A stretch of 64,000 nucleotides of DNA from Thiobacillus thioparus DSM 505. Lineage in GTDB: Bacteria; Pseudomonadota; Gammaproteobacteria; Burkholderiales; Thiobacillaceae. Below the pieces are notes generated by a model. That model saw nothing but the letters and a program-made list of their open reading frames with translations, made no database searches and was not told the DNA's origin. Where the stretch lies: NCBI RefSeq assembly GCF_000373385.1, contig NZ_KB891317.1, forward strand, positions 186,001-250,000. The letters are read 5' to 3'. This document shows, one piece after another, positions 38,317-48,726 of the stretch; within the stretch, counting starts at the first letter, position 1, and each line of letters begins with the position of its first letter. The translations under genes were made by a program, and so were the position numbers.

Positions 38317-39021
38317 TTATGTGTCGGCCACGAGGCGATAGCCCACGCCGGATTCGGTGCGGATGTGGCGAGGCAGAGTCGGGTTCGCCTCCAGCTTGCG
38401 ACGCAGCCCTGTCATGTAGACGCGCAGGTAGTGGGTATCCTCGGCATGACTGGGGCCCCAGACTTCCCGCAGCAGCTGCCGGTGAGTGAGCACCCGGCCG
38501 ACATTGGCGATGAGCAGGGCGAGCAGCCGGTATTCGATAGGCGTGAGATGGACCTCCGAGTCGCCACGGTGGACCTGGCGGCGGGCCAGGTCCACCGTGA
38601 CCTCGCCGAATGTGACCAGTGGCCCTTCGCCGCCGGCCAGGCGGGCGCGCCGCAACAGCGCGCGCACCCGTGCCAGCAGTTCCGCCACGCCAAAGGGCTT
38701 GGTCAGGTAGTCGTCTGCCCCGGCATCGAGGGCGGCCACCTTGTCGGTCTCGTCGACGCGGGCGGACAGAATCAGGATGGGAACGGCAGACCAGCTGCGC
38801 AGGTCGCGTACCACGTCGACGCCGTCCCGGTCCGGCAGGCCCAGGTCGAGAATGACCAGGTCGGGCTTGCGCGTGCCGGCCTCAACCAGTCCTCGTTCCC
38901 CTTCGCCGGCTTCCACCACGTGGCAGCCCTCGGCTTCCAGCGCGGTGCGCACGAAGCGGCGGATCTGGGGCTCGTCTTCGATGACGACCACGGTGGGCGA
39001 AGCGGCATGCAGGTCTTCCAT
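38317..39021 (-). CDS. kdpE: KdpE response regulator
   Basis: 234 residues, OmpR class. Phospho-acceptor Asp is D59 (LVILDLGLPDRDG), with K108 in LTKPF. The C-terminal winged helix ends RRKLEANPTLPRHIRTESGVGYRLV. It activates kdpFABC when K+ is limiting. It follows kdpD with a 6-base gap, the last gene of the kdp run. Confidence 0.96.
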   Translation of the reverse strand: MEDLHAASPTVVVIEDEPQIRRFVRTALEAEGCHVVEAGEGERGLVEAGTRKPDLVILDLGLPDRDGVDVVRDLRSWSAVPILILSARVDETDKVAALDAGADDYLTKPFGVAELLARVRALLRRARLAGGEGPLVTFGEVTVDLARRQVHRGDSEVHLTPIEYRLLALLIANVGRVLTHRQLLREVWGPSHAEDTHYLRVYMTGLRRKLEANPTLPRHIRTESGVGYRLVADT

Positions 39022-39027
39022 TCAGGT

Positions 39028-41742
39028 TCAGATCTCCGGGACGACGACGGGCGGCTCGCCGGCGGGCAGGGTGATGATGAACCGGGCGCCGCCTTCGGGA
39101 CGATTTTCCCCTCTGACCGTTCCTTTGTGTGCCTGGACGATGGCACGCACGATGGCAAGGCCGAGGCCGACCCCCGCCACGGAGGATTCGTCCTGGCCAC
39201 GGGTGAATTTCTCGAACAGGCTTTCCTCTCGACCGGGCGGCAGCCCCGGTCCGTTGTCGGCGACGGTGATCGTGACGCGGTCACCCTCGTTGCGGGCAGC
39301 GATCTCGATACGGCTGCCTGCCGGCGTGTATTTCGCGGCGTTCTCCAATAGGTTGCAGAACACCCGTTCCATGAGCACGCTGTCGAGTTCCAGCAAGGGC
39401 AAGTCCGCCGGCAGGTTGACAACCACTTCATGCCGCGCCAGGGGAATGGCCAGGATTTGCATCGAGGCGCCCACCACTTCCTCCAGGGGCTGCCATTCCC
39501 GCCTCAGCTGGACGTGGCCCTCCTGCAGGCGCGCCATATCCAGCAGGTTGCTCACCAGGGTGCTGGTCCGCAGGGACTCGGTGCGAATGGCCTGGGCGAT
39601 CTCGGCCTGGGCTTCCGGCAAGGGCGGGCCGGCCAGCGGCAGGGAGTCGGCCAAGCCCGCCAGCACGGTTAGCGGCGTGCGCAGGTCATGGGACAGGGCG
39701 GACAACAGGCCGTTGCGCAGCCGTTCGGACTCCATCCGCACCAGGGCGTCCTGCGCCACTTCCACGAAATGCACCCGCTCCAGAGCCAGGGCGATCTGGG
39801 CGGCGAAGGTCTCCAGCAGACGGGCCTGCTCGGGCTGGAACAGGAGCCGTTTCTGGCTGGGCAGCAGGGCCAGCACCCCCCGCGTGCGCATCGGCGCCTT
39901 CAGCGGCAAGTAGTACATGGGCGCGCCCGGCAGGCTCTGGGTACCCATCCCTGCGGGCTGCTGGTGATCGTAGACCCACTGGGCGATCGCCGGATCCAGC
40001 GGCAACTCCTGGTGTCCGGGCAAGGGCGCGGGCGCATGCAGTTTTTCCTGGAGGTCAGGCAGCAGGATGCAGACCTGCGACTGGAACAAGCCTTCCAGAT
40101 GGTGGTGGGAGATGTCCACGATGTCTGCCGGCAGAAGCGCCCCCGCCAACTCCCGGCCCAGTTCGTTGAGCGCTCGGGTACGACGCTCGCGGTACATGGC
40201 GACGCGGGTCTGATAGCGCAGGCTCGCCGCCACCCTGCTGATCGTCAGGCCTACTCCCAGCATGATGGAGAATGTCAGCAGGTGACGGGTGTCCGCCACA
40301 CTGAAGGAAAGCTTCGGGGGCACGAAGAAAAAATCAAAAGCCAGTACGCAGAGGAAGGAGGCCAGGATGGCAGGCCCCTGTCCGTAACGGACCGCCACCG
40401 CGACCACGCCCAGCAGGTAGAGCATGATGATGTTGGCCAGATCGAGCCATGGACTGACCACCTGGGCAAGCACGGTGGCGAGGGCGCAGGCTACTCCGGC
40501 CCAGACATAGCCCGGCCACCGGGCCATGGGCACGGACTCCGGGTCGAGAATGAAAGGCGTGGAGACCGCCTCCGCGGGAGACCGGGCCTCTGCCTCATGT
40601 GCGACGACATAGACGTCGACATCCTCGGCCAGGGCGGAGAGGCGGTCCGACAGGGGGGCGCGGAGCATCCGCGACAAGCCGGTACGCAAACTCTTGCCTA
40701 CCACCAGTTTCGATACGTTGCGGCTGACGGCATAGGCCAGCAGGGTCTGGGTGTCCTCCTGCCCGGCGAGGGTGGCCGTCTCCGCACCCAGTTCGCGGGC
40801 CAGGGCCAGTGTCCTCAGAATCTTGTCGCGGTTGGCCTCGGACAGGCGCTGCAGCGCGGGGGTCTCGACGTAGACGGCGATCCAGTCGGCGTGCAGGTCC
40901 GCCGCCAGCCGGGCGGCAGCGCGCACCAGCCGGTCGCCGCCGGCGCCCGGGCCGATGCAGGCCAGCAGGCGTTCCTTGGCCTGCCACACCGTTTCGATGG
41001 CCTGGTCGGTGCGGTATTCCCGCATCTGCGCATCCACCCGGTCGGCGGTGCGGCGCAAGGCCAGTTCGCGCAGGGCGATCAGATTGCCCTTGCGGAAGAA
41101 ATTGCGGATCGCCCGCTCGGCCTGCTGGGGAAGGTAGACCTTGCCTTCCTTCATGCGCTGCATCAGTTCGTCCGGGGTCAGGTCGACCAGGGCCACTTCG
41201 GCTGCCTGCTCGAACACGCGATCCGGCAGGGTCTCGCGCACCTGGATGCCGGTGATGTTGCCGACGATGTCGTTGAGGCTTTCCAGATGCTGCACGTTCA
41301 CCGTGGTCCAGACGTCGATGCCGGCTGCCAGCAGTTCCTCGACATCCTGCCAGCGCTTGGGATGGCGCGAGCCGGGCACGTTGGAATGCGCCAGTTCGTC
41401 CACCAGGAGCAGGGTGGGCTTGCGCGCGAGCGCCGCATCGAGGTCGAACTCGCGCAGCTCCCTTCCCTGGTAGGCCACGACCTTGGGGGGCAACAGTTCG
41501 AGCCCGTCCAGTAACTGTGCGGTCTCGGAACGTCCATGCGTTTCCACCAGGCCCACCACCACCTCGCGCCCCTGGCTTTGCAGGGCCCGTGCCGCGCTCA
41601 GCATGGCGTAGGTCTTGCCCACGCCGGGACAGGCGCCAAAAAAGACCTTCAGCTTCCCCCTCTGTTCGCGTTCGGTATCGGCCTCGATGCGGGCAAGCAG
41701 GGTATCGGGGTCGGGGCGGTTGTCTTGATCGTTGGCAGGCAT
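39028..41742 (-). CDS. kdpD: KdpD sensor histidine kinase
   Basis: 904 residues. The N-terminal KdpD domain has Walker A GACPGVGKTYAML at about 33-45 and a DE-containing Walker B (LLLVDELAHSN), followed by a universal-stress-like domain, four closely spaced membrane helices, a GAF-like region, and a kinase core with phospho-His near residue 685 (LSHDLRTPLTVLAG) and the ATP-binding NLLENAAKY, DNGPGL and GVGLGLAI motifs. It senses K+ limitation. It sits 15 bases after the zinc-finger gene, before kdpE. Confidence 0.96.
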   Translation of the reverse strand: MPANDQDNRPDPDTLLARIEADTEREQRGKLKVFFGACPGVGKTYAMLSAARALQSQGREVVVGLVETHGRSETAQLLDGLELLPPKVVAYQGRELREFDLDAALARKPTLLLVDELAHSNVPGSRHPKRWQDVEELLAAGIDVWTTVNVQHLESLNDIVGNITGIQVRETLPDRVFEQAAEVALVDLTPDELMQRMKEGKVYLPQQAERAIRNFFRKGNLIALRELALRRTADRVDAQMREYRTDQAIETVWQAKERLLACIGPGAGGDRLVRAAARLAADLHADWIAVYVETPALQRLSEANRDKILRTLALARELGAETATLAGQEDTQTLLAYAVSRNVSKLVVGKSLRTGLSRMLRAPLSDRLSALAEDVDVYVVAHEAEARSPAEAVSTPFILDPESVPMARWPGYVWAGVACALATVLAQVVSPWLDLANIIMLYLLGVVAVAVRYGQGPAILASFLCVLAFDFFFVPPKLSFSVADTRHLLTFSIMLGVGLTISRVAASLRYQTRVAMYRERRTRALNELGRELAGALLPADIVDISHHHLEGLFQSQVCILLPDLQEKLHAPAPLPGHQELPLDPAIAQWVYDHQQPAGMGTQSLPGAPMYYLPLKAPMRTRGVLALLPSQKRLLFQPEQARLLETFAAQIALALERVHFVEVAQDALVRMESERLRNGLLSALSHDLRTPLTVLAGLADSLPLAGPPLPEAQAEIAQAIRTESLRTSTLVSNLLDMARLQEGHVQLRREWQPLEEVVGASMQILAIPLARHEVVVNLPADLPLLELDSVLMERVFCNLLENAAKYTPAGSRIEIAARNEGDRVTITVADNGPGLPPGREESLFEKFTRGQDESSVAGVGLGLAIVRAIVQAHKGTVRGENRPEGGARFIITLPAGEPPVVVPEI

Positions 41743-42370: not shown

Positions 42371-42919
42371 TTAAGCGCGGCTAAAGAAAGGGGCCACGGG
42401 CTGGCTCCAGGAAGCGAACAGCTGCTTGACCTCCGAGGCGTGACCGCACTGGTGCAGGCGTGCGCGAAAACGGCAGTCGGAGAACAACTGCGTGGCATCG
42501 GCCAGAATTCTGAGGTGTTCCTCGTCGGCCTGATTCGGCGCCAGCAGGACCAGGATATCCATGACCGGGTTGCCGTCCGGGGCATCGAAGGGGATGGGCG
42601 ACTTCAGGCGCATATAGGCAACCTGCATCCGTTCCAACTCCTTGACGCGGGCATGGGGGATGGCGACACCTTTTCCAAGGCCAGTGGAACCGGCCTGCTC
42701 GCGGCGCGATAGACTCCGGGCTACCCATTCCTGGGGGAGCGCATGCTCGCGCTCCATGTGCCGACCGATGACATCGAAAAGCTCAAGCTTGTTCGAGACC
42801 GCGACGTCGAGGCAGATATTTTCCGGGGAGAGATAACTGGCGAGCGTGTTCAATCCGGAGGGCTTTTTCGCGCCGATAAACAAACCAGACTTGATCACGG
42901 CCAAGGGATTCAGATTCAC
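42371..42919 (-). CDS. EIIA(Ntr)/fructose-type PTS phosphorylation protein in the kdp operon
   Basis: 182 residues if begun at the GTG at 42919, which has GGAG six bases upstream; a TTG at 42961 is the alternative. The PTS EIIA type-2 domain covers most of it: LSPENICLDV start, and the phosphorylatable histidine in GKGVAIPHARV (about residue 89). The order of helices fits PtsN. In E. coli, PtsN binds KdpD and alters kdp expression, so a copy here may be a dedicated kdp regulator. No EI, HPr or IIB gene is near. Confidence 0.85.
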   Translation of the reverse strand: MNLNPLAVIKSGLFIGAKKPSGLNTLASYLSPENICLDVAVSNKLELFDVIGRHMEREHALPQEWVARSLSRREQAGSTGLGKGVAIPHARVKELERMQVAYMRLKSPIPFDAPDGNPVMDILVLLAPNQADEEHLRILADATQLFSDCRFRARLHQCGHASEVKQLFASWSQPVAPFFSRA

Positions 42920-43033
42920 GTTCGTCTCCAGATTTACGCTGCCTTGGACAGGGTATGCCAATCAACCACGTGGAATCGATTGCAGGTGGGGGAATAGGAG
43001 GGGGCGCCTGCACCGTTCCAATGAGTCAGCAAG

Positions 43034-43840
43034 TTAGAACGTCTTGGAAATCCATGCAGTGGCCGTGGCTTTGCCCAGATACTCGCCGGTATTGCTCGTC
43101 CCGGTGTTCGTCCAGAAAGCTTTCTCGGCATTGGTGTCGCTGTACGCGACGCCAAGGGTCATGCCGGACGTCTGCTTGGCCAGCTTGCCGAGGTCATACG
43201 TTGCACTGATCTTCCAGTCCTTGTAATCCGGCGATACGCCGTAGGCGGCAATAAACTGATCGTCGTTCTTGAAGTTGAAGGTGCCCCAATGCGCACCCAG
43301 GGTCATGCCGGTGTCTGCAACAGGCAGGCTGCCGGAAATATCCAGATAGTAGGTGCCATTGGTATTCGGGCCGACGCCAAACACCGAGTCACTCACATAG
43401 TGGGAATACTTGGCAGTAAACCATTTCCAGCCTACCGAGCCATAAATCTCCGAGGTCCAGGCACCCACAACGCTGTCTTTTTTGCTGCCCGGGTACATGT
43501 AGCGGATCGCCCCCACGTCATAACTGATCGGTCCGATGGTATTGCGGTAGCCGCCGTAGAGATCGAGTTCCATGCTGCCGCCGGTGTAACCCTGGAATTC
43601 CGTCAGCCAGCTTACATTGGAGCCCCAGGTGCCAAGGTAGACACCGCTGGCGTGCGTATAGTCAAAGCCGCCCTGAATGGCAGGCTTGCCGCCGGTCTGG
43701 GAAATGCCGCGGAAGACATAGTTGCTGGTGAGGCCGATATTGGCCGTCAGCGTATGCGGGCTGTCCTCGGCGAGCGCTGGCAGGGACGCCATTGAGGCCA
43801 TGAGGACGAGGGGGGAGAAGATAGGGTGGGGCAGTTTCAT
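43034..43840 (-). CDS. TorF-family putative outer-membrane porin
   Basis: 268 residues with a signal peptide (VLMASMASLPALA) and a beta-rich mature part: TLTANIGLTSNYVFRGISQTGGKPAIQGG is the TorF/Gcw_chp family signature, and the C-terminal residue is Phe (SKTF), as in outer-membrane beta barrels. It begins at the stop of the 40-residue peptide (TAATG), inside the kdp run. It might let K+ or another solute through the outer membrane; substrate unknown. Confidence 0.85.
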   Translation of the reverse strand: MKLPHPIFSPLVLMASMASLPALAEDSPHTLTANIGLTSNYVFRGISQTGGKPAIQGGFDYTHASGVYLGTWGSNVSWLTEFQGYTGGSMELDLYGGYRNTIGPISYDVGAIRYMYPGSKKDSVVGAWTSEIYGSVGWKWFTAKYSHYVSDSVFGVGPNTNGTYYLDISGSLPVADTGMTLGAHWGTFNFKNDDQFIAAYGVSPDYKDWKISATYDLGKLAKQTSGMTLGVAYSDTNAEKAFWTNTGTSNTGEYLGKATATAWISKTF

Positions 43841-43962
43841 TAACTTGATTTCCTTTCTTGTTTCTCGGGGTGTTTGTTAGTCAAGCAGGTCACAACAACC
43901 CATGCAAAGAGCAAGGGGATGACGAGTGCGGCGATAGCCATCAGGAAGTTCTGGAGTTCCAT
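43840..43962 (-). CDS. 40-residue membrane peptide between kdpC and the porin gene
   Basis: MELQNFLMAIAALVIPLLF begins one hydrophobic helix that runs to about residue 26, followed by a short charged tail (KHPEKQERKSS). The frame starts 7 bases after kdpC and its TAA shares a base with the porin ATG, so it is tightly coupled. Nothing in the sequence equals KdpF. I do not recognise the family; a single-helix accessory peptide is plausible. Confidence 0.6.
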   Translation of the reverse strand: MELQNFLMAIAALVIPLLFAWVVVTCLTNKHPEKQERKSS

Positions 43963-43969
43963 GGCGGTC

Positions 43970-44548
43970 TTAGGGTTTGGCCAGACGGTCCAGCGCCAGG
44001 TTCAGCGCCAGCACGTTGACCCGGGGTTCGCCCAGCAGGCCGAGTTGGCGCCCCTCGGTATGGGCGTCGATGAGCGTGTTCACCGCGGCCACGTTCAGGC
44101 CGCGGATGCGGGCGACGCGAGGGACCTGCCAGCGCGCGGCGGCGGGGCTGATCTGAGGATCGAGGCCGCTGCCCGAGGCAGTGACGAGGTCTTCCGGGAT
44201 CGGCGCGGTCTGGCTCGGGTCGGAGGACTTCAACGCATCGATCCGGGCCTTGACCGCCTCTTTCAGCGCCGGGTTGAGCGGGCCCTGATTGGAGCCGCTG
44301 GAGGCGCTGGCGTTGTAGGGCATCGGGCCGGTGGCCGAGGGGCGGCCCCAGAAGTATTTCGGGTCGGTAAAGTTCTGGCCGATCAGCCGCGAACCGACCG
44401 GCTTGCCGTTCACGACGATCAGGCTGCCCTCTGCGGCGTCGGGGAACAGCACTTTCGCGATTCCGGTCACCGCCACAGGGTAGACAATGCCGGTAACGGC
44501 CGACAACAGGACGAACAGGGTGAGGGCGGGACGAAACAGGGTCTTCAT
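43970..44548 (-). CDS. kdpC: Potassium-transporting ATPase KdpC subunit
   Basis: 192 residues with one N-terminal membrane helix. Family segments [22 protein letters not shown] and the tail [43 protein letters not shown] are clear. KdpC anchors KdpA and KdpB and raises ATP affinity. 14 bases after kdpB. Confidence 0.97.
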
Positions 44549-44562
44549 GATTTTTTCCTTTC

Positions 44563-46641
44563 TCAGGCGAGCCCGGCAACGGCGATGAGCATGTCGATCA
44601 GCTTGATGCCGATGAAGGGCGCGATCAGCCCGCCCAGACCATAGACCGCCAGATTGCGACGCAGCAGCGCGGCGGCGCCCCGGGGTTGGTATTTCACGCC
44701 TTTCAGCGCCAGCGGGATCAGGAACATGATGATCAGCGCATTGAAAATCACCGCCGACAGGATGGCGGAAGCCGGGCTGGCCAGTCCCATGACGTTGAGC
44801 GCCGCGAGCTGCGGGTAGGTGGTGACGAAAGCTGCGGGGATGATGGCGAAATACTTGGCGACGTCGTTGGCGATGGAGAAGGTGGTGAGCGAACCGCGCG
44901 TCATTAACATTTGTTTGCCGGTTTCCACCACCTCGATCAGCTTGGTCGGGTTGGAATCGAGGTCGACCATGTTGCCGGCCTCCTTGGCCGCTTGCGTGCC
45001 GGTGTTCATGGCCACCGCTACGTCGGCCTGCGCGAGTGCAGGCGCGTCGTTGGTGCCGTCGCCGGTCATGGCCACCAGCCGGCCTTCGGCCTGGTATTCG
45101 CGGATGAGCTTCAACTTGGCCTCCGGCGTGGCCTCGGCCAGGAAGTCGTCCACCCCCGCCTCGGCGGCGATGGAGGCGGCGGTCAGGCGGTTGTCCCCGG
45201 TGATCATCACCGTCTTGATGCCCATGCGGCGCAGTTCGGCGAAACGCTCCTTGATGCCGCCCTTGACGACGTCCTTCAGTTCCACCACGCCTAGCACGCG
45301 GGCACCACCGCCGGCGGATTCGGCCACCACCAGCGGGGTGGAGCCGCGTTTGGCGACCTGCTCGACGATCATTTCCACTTCGGGCGGGAAGTGACCGCCG
45401 CGTTCCGCGACATAGGCGCGTACCGCTTCGGCTGCTCCCTTGCGGATCTCGCGGCCGTCGAGGTCGACGCCGCTCATGCGGGTCTGGGCGGTGAAATGCA
45501 CGAAATGGGCACCCAGTTCACGCACGTCACGGCCGCGCAGGTTGAACTTGTCCTTGGCCAGAACCACGATGCTGCGACCTTCCGGCGTCTCGTCGGCGAG
45601 CGAGGAAAGTTGGGCTGCGTCGGCCAGCGCCGCTTCCTTCACGCCGGCGGCGTGCAGGAAATTGGTCGCCTGGCGATTGCCCAGCGTAATCGTGCCGGTC
45701 TTGTCCAGCAGCAACACATCGACATCGCCCGCCGCTTCGACCGCACGGCCGGAGGTGGCGATGACATTGGCCTGCATCATGCGGCTCATGCCGGCGACCC
45801 CGATGGCCGACAGTAGACCGGCAATCGTGGTCGGGATCAGGCAGACCAGCAAAGCGATGAGCACCGTGATGGAGATGGGTGTCCCGGCCTTCGCGACACT
45901 GACGCCGAACATCGAGTAGGGCAGCAAGGTGACGGTGACGCCCAGGAAAACGATGGTCAGCGCCACCAGCAGGATGGTCAGTGCGATCTCGTTGGGCGTC
46001 TTCTGGCGTTTGGCGTTTTCCACCATGGCGATCATGCGGTCGACGAAGGTCTCGCCCGGATTGACCGTCACGCGCACGACCAGCCAGTCGGACAGTACGC
46101 GGGTGCCGCCGGTGACGGCGGAGAAGTCGCCGCCCGCTTCGCGGATGACAGGCGCCGATTCGCCGGTGATCGCCGATTCATCCACCGAGGCCACGCCTAC
46201 GATGACCTCGCCGTCGGCCGGAATGGTCTCACTGGAATGGACGATGAAGACATCGCCCTTGCGCAGGTCCGTTGCCGGCACCGTGACCCACGTATCGGTG
46301 GCGTTCGCTCCCTTGATCTTTTTGGCCAGGGTCTCTTTCTTCAGCCCGCGCAACGAGGCCGCCTGGGCCTTGCTGCGGCCCTCGGCCAGCGCTTCGGCGA
46401 AGTTGGCGAACAGCACCGTGAACCACAACCAGAGCGCAATGGCGAGGATGAATCCGGCCGGGGCTTCGCCCTGTCCGGCCAGGGCCTGAGCCCAGAGCGC
46501 GGTGGTCAGGATGCTGCCGACGTAAACCACGAACATCACCGGGTTGCGCCACTGTACGGCGGGGTTCAGCTTCCTGAATGAATCGACGATCGCCGGCTTC
46601 AACAACGCCGGGTCGAACATGGCAAGTTTCTTGTGCGACAT
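44563..46641 (-). CDS. kdpB: Potassium-transporting P-type ATPase KdpB
   Basis: 692 residues. P-type motifs are all present: TGES ([11 protein letters not shown]), the phosphorylated Asp in [13 protein letters not shown], and [10 protein letters not shown]. Start is the ATG at 46641 ([14 protein letters not shown]). It energises K+ entry via KdpA. 19 bases after kdpA. Confidence 0.97.
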
Positions 46642-46660: not shown

Positions 46661-48448
46661 TCAGTGAGCGAGCCCAAGCATCAGATGCTCGACCACCGGC
46701 CCGAGCGCAAGCGCGGGGACGTAATTCAGCGCGCCGACCAGAACCACCGTGCCGATCAACAGCACGACGAAGAGCGGGCCATGGGTGGGCATGGTGCCGG
46801 CGCTGGCGGTAATGCGCTTCTTTGCGGCGAGGGCGCCGGCCAGGGCCAGCACCGGCACGATCACGCCAAAGCGGCCGAACCACATGGCGATGCCGAGCAG
46901 GGTGTTGTAGAAGGGCGTGTTGGCCGACAGCCCGGCAAACGCACTGCCGTTGTTGTTGGCGGCCGAGGTGAAGGCGTAGAGAATTTCCGAGAAACCGTGC
47001 GCGCCGGGGTTGGCGATGCCGGCGACACCGGCCGGGACCATGACGGCGATGGCCGTACCGGCCAGCACCAGCAGCGGCGTCACCAGGATGGCGATGGACA
47101 CCATCTTCATCTCGTAGGCCTCGATCTTCTTGCCCAGGTATTCCGGCGTGCGGCCGATCATCAGGCCGGCGATGAACACCGCCATGACGGCGAACACCAG
47201 CATGCCGTACAGCCCCGTTCCGACACCGCCGAACACCACTTCGCCGAGCATCATGTTCCACAGGGTAACGAAGCCGCCCAGCGGCATGAAGGAGTCGTGC
47301 ATGGAATTGACCGCGCCGCAGGAGGCCAGCGTGGTGATGGTGGCGAAGAGGCCCGAGTCGGCTATGCCGAAGCGTGTCTCCTTGCCTTCCATGTTGCCGA
47401 CCGATGTGTCGGTGCCCAGGCTGGCCAGCAGCGGGTTGCCCTGATGTTCGAAGCTCATCGCCGCAACCGCCATGACCACGAACAGTAGCGTCATCGCGGC
47501 CAGCACCGCCCAGCCCTGACGCATGTCGCCCACCATGCGGCCGAAGGTCAGGGTCAACGCCGCCGGGATCAGGAAGATCGACAGCATCTGGATGAAGTTC
47601 GCGAGCGGGGTTGGATTTTCAAAGGGATGCGCCGAATTGGCGTTGAAGAAGCCGCCGCCGTTGGTGCCGAGCGTCTTGATCGCTTCCTGCGAGGCGACCG
47701 GGCCCATCGGCAAGGACTGGGTCCGGAGCGAGACGGACTCGGTGACGGCGTTGCCCTTGTCGTCCTTGGCCGGCTGGCCGGCGGCATCGAGTTTGGGCGC
47801 GTCGTACCGGGTGGCCTCCACGGTCGTCACGTTCTTGTAGGCATCGAAGTTCTGGATGACACCCTGGCCGACCAGGAACACGGCGTAGACCAGCGAGATC
47901 GGCAGCAGCACATAGAGCGTGATGCGGGTGAGATCGACCCAGGCGTTGCCGATGGTTTTGGCGGTGTGGCGGGCGAAGCCGCGGATCAGCGCAATGACGA
48001 CGACGATGCCGGTGGCGGCGGAAAGGAAGTTCTGCACCGCCAGGCCGAGCATCTGGGTCAGGTAGCTCATCGTCGATTCGCCACCGTAGCCCTGCCAGTT
48101 GGTGTTGGTGACAAAGCTGATCGCGGTGTTGAACGACGAATCCGGACTGACGTTGGCCATCGCCTGGGGATTCAGCGGCAACCACAGCTGCAGCCGTTGC
48201 AGCGCGTAGACGGCCAGGAAGCCGAGCAGGTTGAACAGCAGGATGGCAAAGGCGTATTTCAGCCAGCCCATTTCCTCGTCCTTCTTCACGCCGCCGAGGC
48301 GATACAGCACGGACTCGATAGGGCCGCCGAGGCGCATCGCAAAGCCGCGGCCTTCCATCACATTGGCGATATAGATACCCAGTGGCTTGGCCACCAGCAG
48401 CAGGATTACCAGATACGCTCCAAGCAGGAGCCAGGCATGGGTAGTCAT
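46661..48448 (-). CDS. kdpA: Potassium-transporting ATPase KdpA (channel-like subunit)
   Basis: 595 residues with about ten membrane helices. The four selectivity-filter repeats are visible, for example [53 protein letters not shown] and [12 protein letters not shown]. It binds and passes K+. The start overlaps the kdpF stop by four bases (ATGA). Confidence 0.97.
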
Positions 48449-48537
48449 GAAAAGTCCTCAGGTTTGAGCAGGGCGGCGATCAGGTAGACAAGCAACCCAA
48501 TCGCGACGATGGCGCTGACGATGAGTAACCCGCTCAT
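48445..48537 (-). CDS. kdpF: KdpF subunit
   Basis: 30 residues ([20 protein letters not shown], then [10 protein letters not shown]), a single hydrophobic helix ending in LLKPE(D/R)F, typical of KdpF, which stabilises the Kdp complex. It overlaps kdpA by four bases and the preceding micropeptide by four. Too short for common ORF calls. Confidence 0.93.
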
Positions 48538-48626
48538 TGGGTGCCTCCCAACTTTGCGCAGCCGACGGCGACGCCCACCACCAGGGCGAAGAACAGGGCA
48601 ATGCCTGCGAGGTAGAACAGGTCCAT
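48534..48626 (-). CDS. 30-residue membrane peptide, first gene of the kdp operon
   Basis: MDLFYLAGIALFFALVVGVA is one hydrophobic helix, followed by [11 protein letters not shown] strong ribosome site (AAGGAG) lies six bases before the ATG, and its stop overlaps the kdpF start (ATGA). It is a candidate accessory peptide of the Kdp pump; small ORFs of this pattern occur ahead of kdpF elsewhere, but I know of no assigned function. Confidence 0.75.
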   Translation of the reverse strand: MDLFYLAGIALFFALVVGVAVGCAKLGGTQ

Positions 48627-48661
48627 GACATCTCCTTGCAACGTGAACGGCGATGCAATGG

Positions 48662-48726
48662 ACTATAGAGACCTGCCAATAAAGATGCGGCTAAGACTGA
48701 TGAGGAAAGTGTTAAGAAAACGTAAA
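48662..48726 (-). promoter_or_regulatory. kdp promoter with KdpE-type box
   Basis: On the minus strand, TATAGT (48667-48662) fits a -10 box and implies a start near 48655, 30 bases before the first ORF. TTTACGTTTTCTTAACAC (48726-48709) resembles the E. coli KdpE site (T-rich with TTTACAC end) and would lie at about -71 to -54, the same position as in E. coli. There is no good -35, as expected of an activated promoter. Confidence 0.75.

Follow-up and report, generated by a model that had tools for sequence, protein, structure and literature searches.

Kdp is an emergency potassium pump that combines a channel-like subunit with a P-type ATPase. In the window, by which we mean the whole 64,000-nucleotide stretch of Thiobacillus thioparus DSM 505 that was analysed, its genes are headed by two consecutive small ORFs (Table 1). 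We named the first of these ORFs, and the family that it represents, Z. Z is a conserved gene that stands first in the kdp operon here, and in the ORF list it spans 30 codons from an ATG start to a TGA stop. A preliminary description, made from the DNA letters alone, had reported two tandem 30-codon ORFs linked by ATGA overlaps to each other and to kdpA, with a strong ribosome site before the first, and had identified the second as kdpF. We found both overlaps, an AAGGAG placed 5 nt upstream of the Z ATG, and matches of the second ORF above the cut-offs of both KdpF models (26.85 bits for TIGR02115, 21.2 bits for PF09604). A GGGAGG lies 6 nt upstream of the kdpF ATG.

Table 1 Features of the kdp region (window coordinates).
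Feature	Position	Strand	Basis
Candidate KdpE operator upstream of Z, T-rich TTTACG..TTAACAC stretch	48709..48726	-	sequence and likeness to the E. coli KdpE site
AAGGAG, likely ribosome-binding site of Z	48632..48637	-	sequence
Z, predicted 30-aa single-helix peptide, first kdp operon gene	48534..48626	-	ORF, family profile, dN/dS, co-occurrence
ATGA overlap, Z stop / kdpF start	48534..48537	-	sequence
kdpF, 30 aa / 30 codons	48445..48537	-	TIGR02115 40.4 bits, PF09604 42.3 bits
ATGA overlap, kdpF stop / kdpA start	48445..48448	-	sequence
kdpA	46661..48448	-	TIGR00680 800.7 bits, PF03814
kdpB	44563..46641	-	TIGR01497 1094.6 bits
kdpC	43970..44548	-	NF001454, TIGR00681
kdpD, sensor kinase, further downstream on the same strand	39028..41742	-	NF007793 1145.1 bits
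kdpE, response regulator	38317..39021	-	NF007820 341.3 bits

The candidate operator resembles the KdpE site of E. coli. Within 250 nt upstream of Z, the motif TTTA[TC]AC occurs on the coding strand of 58 of 253 Z genes and on the opposite strand of 4 of 253, a strong strand bias. The interval from kdpC to kdpD holds, likewise on the minus strand (42371-43840), genes for a putative porin of the TorF family and for a IIA protein like PtsN, the latter scoring 106.8 bits, below its model cut-off of 138.7; in E. coli, PtsN acts on KdpD. A small membrane-type ORF of 40 aa (43840-43962, minus strand), for which NCBIfam gave no match, directly follows kdpC and precedes the porin gene.

Distribution and inheritance of Z

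We gathered kdpA loci with their upstream DNA from the host order, the host phylum, three further phylum sets, 80 named loci and 12 annotated plasmid records. Each of the three further sets covers the phylum of a single genome: an Acidobacteria genome for the Acidobacteriota set, an Ignavibacteria genome for the Bacteroidota set and a Thermomicrobiales genome for the Chloroflexota set, the latter two set names following GTDB placement. Of the 326 loci, one entry of two bases was a mistake and was dropped; 325 have a KdpA match, 324 of them with 200 bp or more of upstream DNA, and 319 regions are unique, window included; 11 later annotated records and E. coli K-12 stand outside these counts. 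The loci from genome searches are the best-scoring KdpA genes, so the shares with Z given below are not unbiased estimates.

A Z profile was seeded with 138 candidates that share a 4-nt overlap at their stop with kdpF and iterated for four rounds on the same loci that it scores. At or above 9 bits it matches 255 of the 319 unique regions, compared with a single one of the 1595 dinucleotide-shuffled controls and none of the 319 taken from the reverse strand, and KdpF was found by profile search in 314 of the 319. Z occurs in the order set (86/95), plasmids (7/12), phylum set (27/29), named loci (70/78), Acidobacteriota (20/28), Chloroflexota (28/29) and extra gammaproteobacteria (3/19). The Bacteroidota set is weak for Z, with 14/29 by the full profile, 5/29 by the held-out profile described next, and five of the six matches (among 255) that score below 15 bits.

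The circularity of the iterated profile is removed in a held-out test, in which the profile was trained on 69 Z sequences from the host-order (betaproteobacterial) set only. At or above 9 bits this profile finds Z in 24/29 loci of the phylum set, which cover almost every other class of that phylum, in 24/29 of the Chloroflexota, in 15/28 of the Acidobacteriota, and in 28/38 of the named loci L178-L216, which are mostly not betaproteobacterial. Its matches among the controls are two in the 1595 shuffled regions and none in the 319 reverse-strand ones, and among real KdpA proteins it matches 1 of 240; the held-out matches together with the low rate on KdpA show that a Z match is not mere hydrophobicity. 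Among the later records, the Z profile scores 46.3 bits in Mycetohabitans, 34.6 in Methylocystis, 31.7 in Subdoligranulum (a clostridium), 26.7 in Phenylobacterium, where Z lies directly upstream of kdpF, 23.2 in Nonomuraea, 17.7 in Rhodococcus, 16.0 in Sinorhizobium and a weak 11.8 in Streptomyces. Tsukamurella has no Z, and the best scores in Enterococcus and Niallia are at most 7.7 and 5.4 bits. Z is also present in a Pseudomonas strain (L139) whose KdpA is 72% identical to that of the window, and the clostridial locus (L332) has the order Z, kdpF, kdpA. Two Z-like ORFs stand upstream of kdpF at L008 (43.8 and 21.7 bits) and at L183 (34.4 and 14.0 bits).

E. coli K-12 carries kdpF alone upstream of kdpA, with a best Z score of 1.0 bit, and Z was found in none of the seven named Enterobacterales (E. 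coli K-12, Rahnella, Pantoea, two Providencia, Enterobacter and Entomohabitans). Neither a Lactiplantibacillus plasmid, which has kdpF, nor a Trichormus plasmid, which lacks it, has Z. Neither gene is present in 5 of the 319 regions, and kdpF occurs without Z at 59 of 314 loci; these 59 loci and E. coli K-12 indicate that the pump can work without Z. The copy of the PDB that we searched holds 25 entries with KdpA, representing three distinct sequences (18, 6 and 1 entries), all of which align end to end with KdpA of E. coli K-12 at about 1200 bits. Structural knowledge of the pump thus comes from an organism without Z, and the best match of the Z profile to PDB sequences has an E value of 0.25.

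No Pfam or NCBIfam model matches the window Z above its cut-off, and the Z family as a whole corresponds to none of their families, the hits obtained being insignificant. Six of the first seven plasmid records with a Z match list no gene on Z, and of eight later records with a match, five list no gene there and two no genes around it. Since the PLSDB gene table is incomplete, these gaps are weak evidence that annotation often skips the Z gene. On an Arthrobacter plasmid (L100, 855-1052), Z appears to form the end of an annotated 65-aa hypothetical protein whose start is perhaps placed too far upstream. Z of Mycetohabitans endofungorum is annotated as a 'potassium ABC transporter ATPase' (WP_212667346.1). 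The earlier statement that Z is not a known subunit is true of Pfam and NCBIfam; it has to be qualified by this one RefSeq annotation and by a passage of one paper in which the operon of C. acetobutylicum is written kdpZYABCXDE (PMC5401905).

Z is closely tied to its neighbours. kdpF accompanies it at all 255 Z loci of the 319 regions, and among 247 Z-kdpF pairs the two genes overlap by 4 nt in 127, are separated by a gap in 94, and have Z after kdpF in 4. One reading of this arrangement is that Z is a leader ORF whose translation, and not its product, sets the expression of kdpF and kdpA, as its first position and the frequent ATGA coupling could suggest. Against it stand the gaps, the residue-level conservation across phyla with a dN/dS of 0.26 (see below), and the four pairs with reversed order, from which it follows that Z need not be a leader; we consider a leader-only Z very unlikely. 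The order kdpF-Z-kdpA, in place of Z-kdpF-kdpA, is seen at L090, L092, L093 and L095. No fusion of Z and KdpF in one frame was found at 12 bits or more in the 319 regions. At two loci of the phylum set (L133 and L135), a third small hydrophobic ORF lies between kdpF and kdpA; the Z profile gives no frame there more than 5.3 bits, Z itself excepted.

To follow Z genome-wide, 300 host-order genomes were searched with a profile of 59 Z peptides, 22 of them from the host order. The profile hits 77 genomes, namely 74 of the 100 that have KdpA and 3 of the 200 that do not; G042, whose KdpA match lies below the cut-off, is counted among the latter. Of 79 matching places, 75 lie on the same strand as kdpA and at most 500 bp upstream of it; the other four are probably chance matches because they are weak (E 6e-4 to 0.009) and lie inside longer open frames of 225, 775, 160 and 844 codons. 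The window Z, itself a query row, is found in the host genome at 42.4 bits (E 2.8e-10), and its position within 500 bp upstream of kdpA and next to kdpF places it in the family.

On a FastTree phylogeny of 240 KdpA proteins, which has some long branches, the presence of Z requires 13 changes. Shuffled labels need 38.2 on average, and none of 500 shufflings needs as few as 13, so Z is inherited with the pump; it has changed presence about 13 times on this tree, by losses or gains. We also computed covariation between Z and KdpF (the top values, 0.20 and 0.197, exceed the maxima of 0.11-0.17 reached in eight group-wise permutations) and between Z and KdpA (0.30 and 0.28, over maxima of 0.21-0.25 in three permutations). 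Relatedness within groups remains in both comparisons and the Z-KdpA pairs are scattered over KdpA, most of them involving the Z column that varies most; the covariation gives no clear partner and is therefore not used as evidence.

Sequence, selection and relation to KdpF

The most conserved columns of Z are D2 (90%), L6 (55%), F12 (60%), F13 (64%), C23 (75%) and L26 (79%). The core from D2 to L26 is ungapped, C23 is followed mostly by E or D and then by R or K before L26, and the tail beyond L26 is variable. The resulting core, M-D-x3-[LI]-x5-F-F-x9-C-[ED]-[RK]-L, agrees with the window Z at all positions but one (A at 24). The GC-x-x-LGG tail seen earlier in the window peptide is thus conserved in part: C23 and L26 are kept in the family, the two final glycines in only 30% and 28%. 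Length, which the preliminary description had proposed to compare in other genomes, is 26-35 residues in 240 of 253 Z peptides.

Across 41 independent pairs, the dN/dS of Z is 0.26, compared with 1.30 and 1.79 in the other two frames, and third codon positions hold 284 of 536 changes. Judged by these substitutions, the codons of Z are under purifying selection, comparable to that on KdpF (dN/dS 0.22, 87 pairs). Z begins with ATG in 236 of 253 cases and has an SD-like 4-mer upstream in 217 of 253. The conservation, the dN/dS and these start and SD sites strongly support the claim that the ORF is translated, and we infer that Z is a produced peptide. That Z is an untranslated chance ORF, as could be imagined of any ORF this short, is extremely improbable in light of the profile nulls, the held-out test and the dN/dS.

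The peptide is predicted to form a single transmembrane helix. The average charge is -0.99 on the N-terminal and +0.88 on the C-terminal flank, and the C flank is the more positive in 214 of 248 peptides, equal in 27 and less positive in 7; by the positive-inside rule, these charges point to an N-out/C-in topology. Permutation tests revealed no conserved helical face in Z, with p values of 0.82 and 0.99 when the membrane part is considered and 0.19 over the entire peptide. In the window Z, a hydrophobic stretch is followed by GC, and a lipoprotein signal model gives an E value of 0.025 (14.9 bits, below its cut-off of 19.3), features that would suit a lipoprotein precursor releasing a short lipopeptide. 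In the family, however, a lipobox-like motif is found in only 34 of 248 peptides and any K or R before the helix in 3 of 248, the cysteine is replaced in 63 of 248, and R, Y and K are common at position -2. We thus rejected Z as a bacterial lipoprotein, a reading with next to no probability.

We then compared Z with KdpF, because the preliminary description had suggested that it could be a duplicated KdpF-like peptide. The two are alike in length (about 30 aa), in their single helix, in belonging to the kdp operon, in commonly overlapping their neighbours and in the selection on them. They differ in that Z has another sequence signature and matches neither KdpF model, and in that E. coli K-12 has KdpF without Z. 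At 9 bits or more, the Z profile matches 2 of 301 KdpF peptides, and of 253 Z peptides 1 is picked up by the KdpF profile. TIGR02115 and PF09604 are not listed for the window Z at E values up to 10, in a search whose filters drop most matches above 0.1, and at E 0.1 the KdpF models match 0 of 59 Z peptides. Nor do the Z column frequencies agree with the C-terminal half of the KdpF consensus, YLVYALLRPEKF.

Profile-profile comparison of Z with KdpF gives a probability of 59.6% (single-comparison E 8.9e-5), or 81.5% with the roles swapped, while 22 hydrophobic KdpA windows reach at most 9.9% in the same comparison. These values, together with the similar length, the single helix and the adjacent genes, would fit a diverged KdpF duplicate that occupies a second KdpF-like site. 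Omitting the Met columns of Z, however, lowers the probability to 1.6% or less, no better than the controls (3.8% reversed, up to 5.1% column-shuffled), and the likeness therefore rests on common start methionines. As the conserved residues also differ and the profiles hardly cross-match, Z is not a recognisable copy of KdpF, and we regard the duplicate at a second site as highly improbable. A very old common origin of Z and KdpF may nonetheless underlie the pair.

Proposed role and comparison with known systems

We propose that Z is a dedicated accessory peptide of the Kdp pump, a single helix with N-out/C-in orientation that is absent from the E. coli lineage, a reading to which we assign a probability of roughly 65%. 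Its Met-Asp N-terminus would lie outside, and its C-terminus, short and basic with mostly Cys-Glu/Asp-Arg/Lys-Leu, on the cytoplasmic side. Z is probably produced together with KdpF, KdpA, KdpB and KdpC through coupled translation and, by analogy, would most likely bind to the complex as an additional, accessory helix. Bound Z would steady the membrane domain or tune the activity of the pump, like the single-helix peptides of other P-type ATPases. The earlier suggestion of a further Kdp subunit fits the co-occurrence and gene order, and its part concerning physical membership in the complex is a hypothesis.

Alternatively, Z could be a small regulator whose target is not the pump but KdpD, the sensor, or some other membrane partner. 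kdpD and kdpE lie on the same strand in the same neighbourhood, further downstream in the window, and regulatory membrane peptides are known (PMC3618439). Z sits with kdpF and kdpA, which speaks against this alternative, but Z was found by that very place; we consider regulation of KdpD unlikely. Returning to Z as a pump peptide, a broader proposal is that the ancestral bacterial Kdp had five membrane components instead of four, with Z a constitutive or regulatory subunit in most bacteria that was lost in Enterobacterales, leaving the E. coli pump a reduced form. We consider the chances of this scenario evenly balanced.

If most other Kdp pumps carry Z, the picture of stability, coupling or inhibition drawn from E. 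coli may be incomplete for them, and Z should be included when KdpFABC from other organisms is expressed. For Caulobacter crescentus, one study describes a strongly structured leader, about 100 nt long, upstream of kdpF (PMC8552747); Phenylobacterium, of the same family, has Z there, and the leader annotation may need correcting.

In the titles and openings of abstracts that we covered, a literature from which subscription papers are mostly absent, we found no broad, selected family of Z-type peptides absent from E. coli. The main text of a Ribo-seq paper on S. meliloti (PMC10117765) does not contain 'kdp', and such a peptide goes unmentioned in the accessible parts of PMC10903887 and PMC11018627. 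Clostridial orfZ/kdpZ, compared by its description, agrees with the gene order of the clostridial locus L332. Two small ORFs for hydrophobic peptides, orfZ and orfY, reportedly precede kdpA in Clostridium acetobutylicum (Treuner-Lange et al., 1997), and a kdpZFABCN operon of Alicyclobacillus acidocaldarius is said to have been described by Schleussinger et al. in 2006. Both reportedly resemble the present arrangement, in which a small hydrophobic ORF is followed by a second small ORF and kdpA; the second ORF had thus reportedly been noted before in single species, and those notes are not known to have defined a family.

Single-helix peptides are known to act on P-type ATPases or similar proteins, as sarcolipin and phospholamban do with SERCA and MgtR and MgtS with MgtA. 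These peptides, which were established by experiment, serve as our working model for Z. CydX is likewise a single helix whose gene stands in an operon with its complex. Z would resemble CydX and other small subunits as a short peptide of a membrane complex (PMC4325964); the two complexes are unrelated, and CydX is a demonstrated subunit whereas Z is a putative one.
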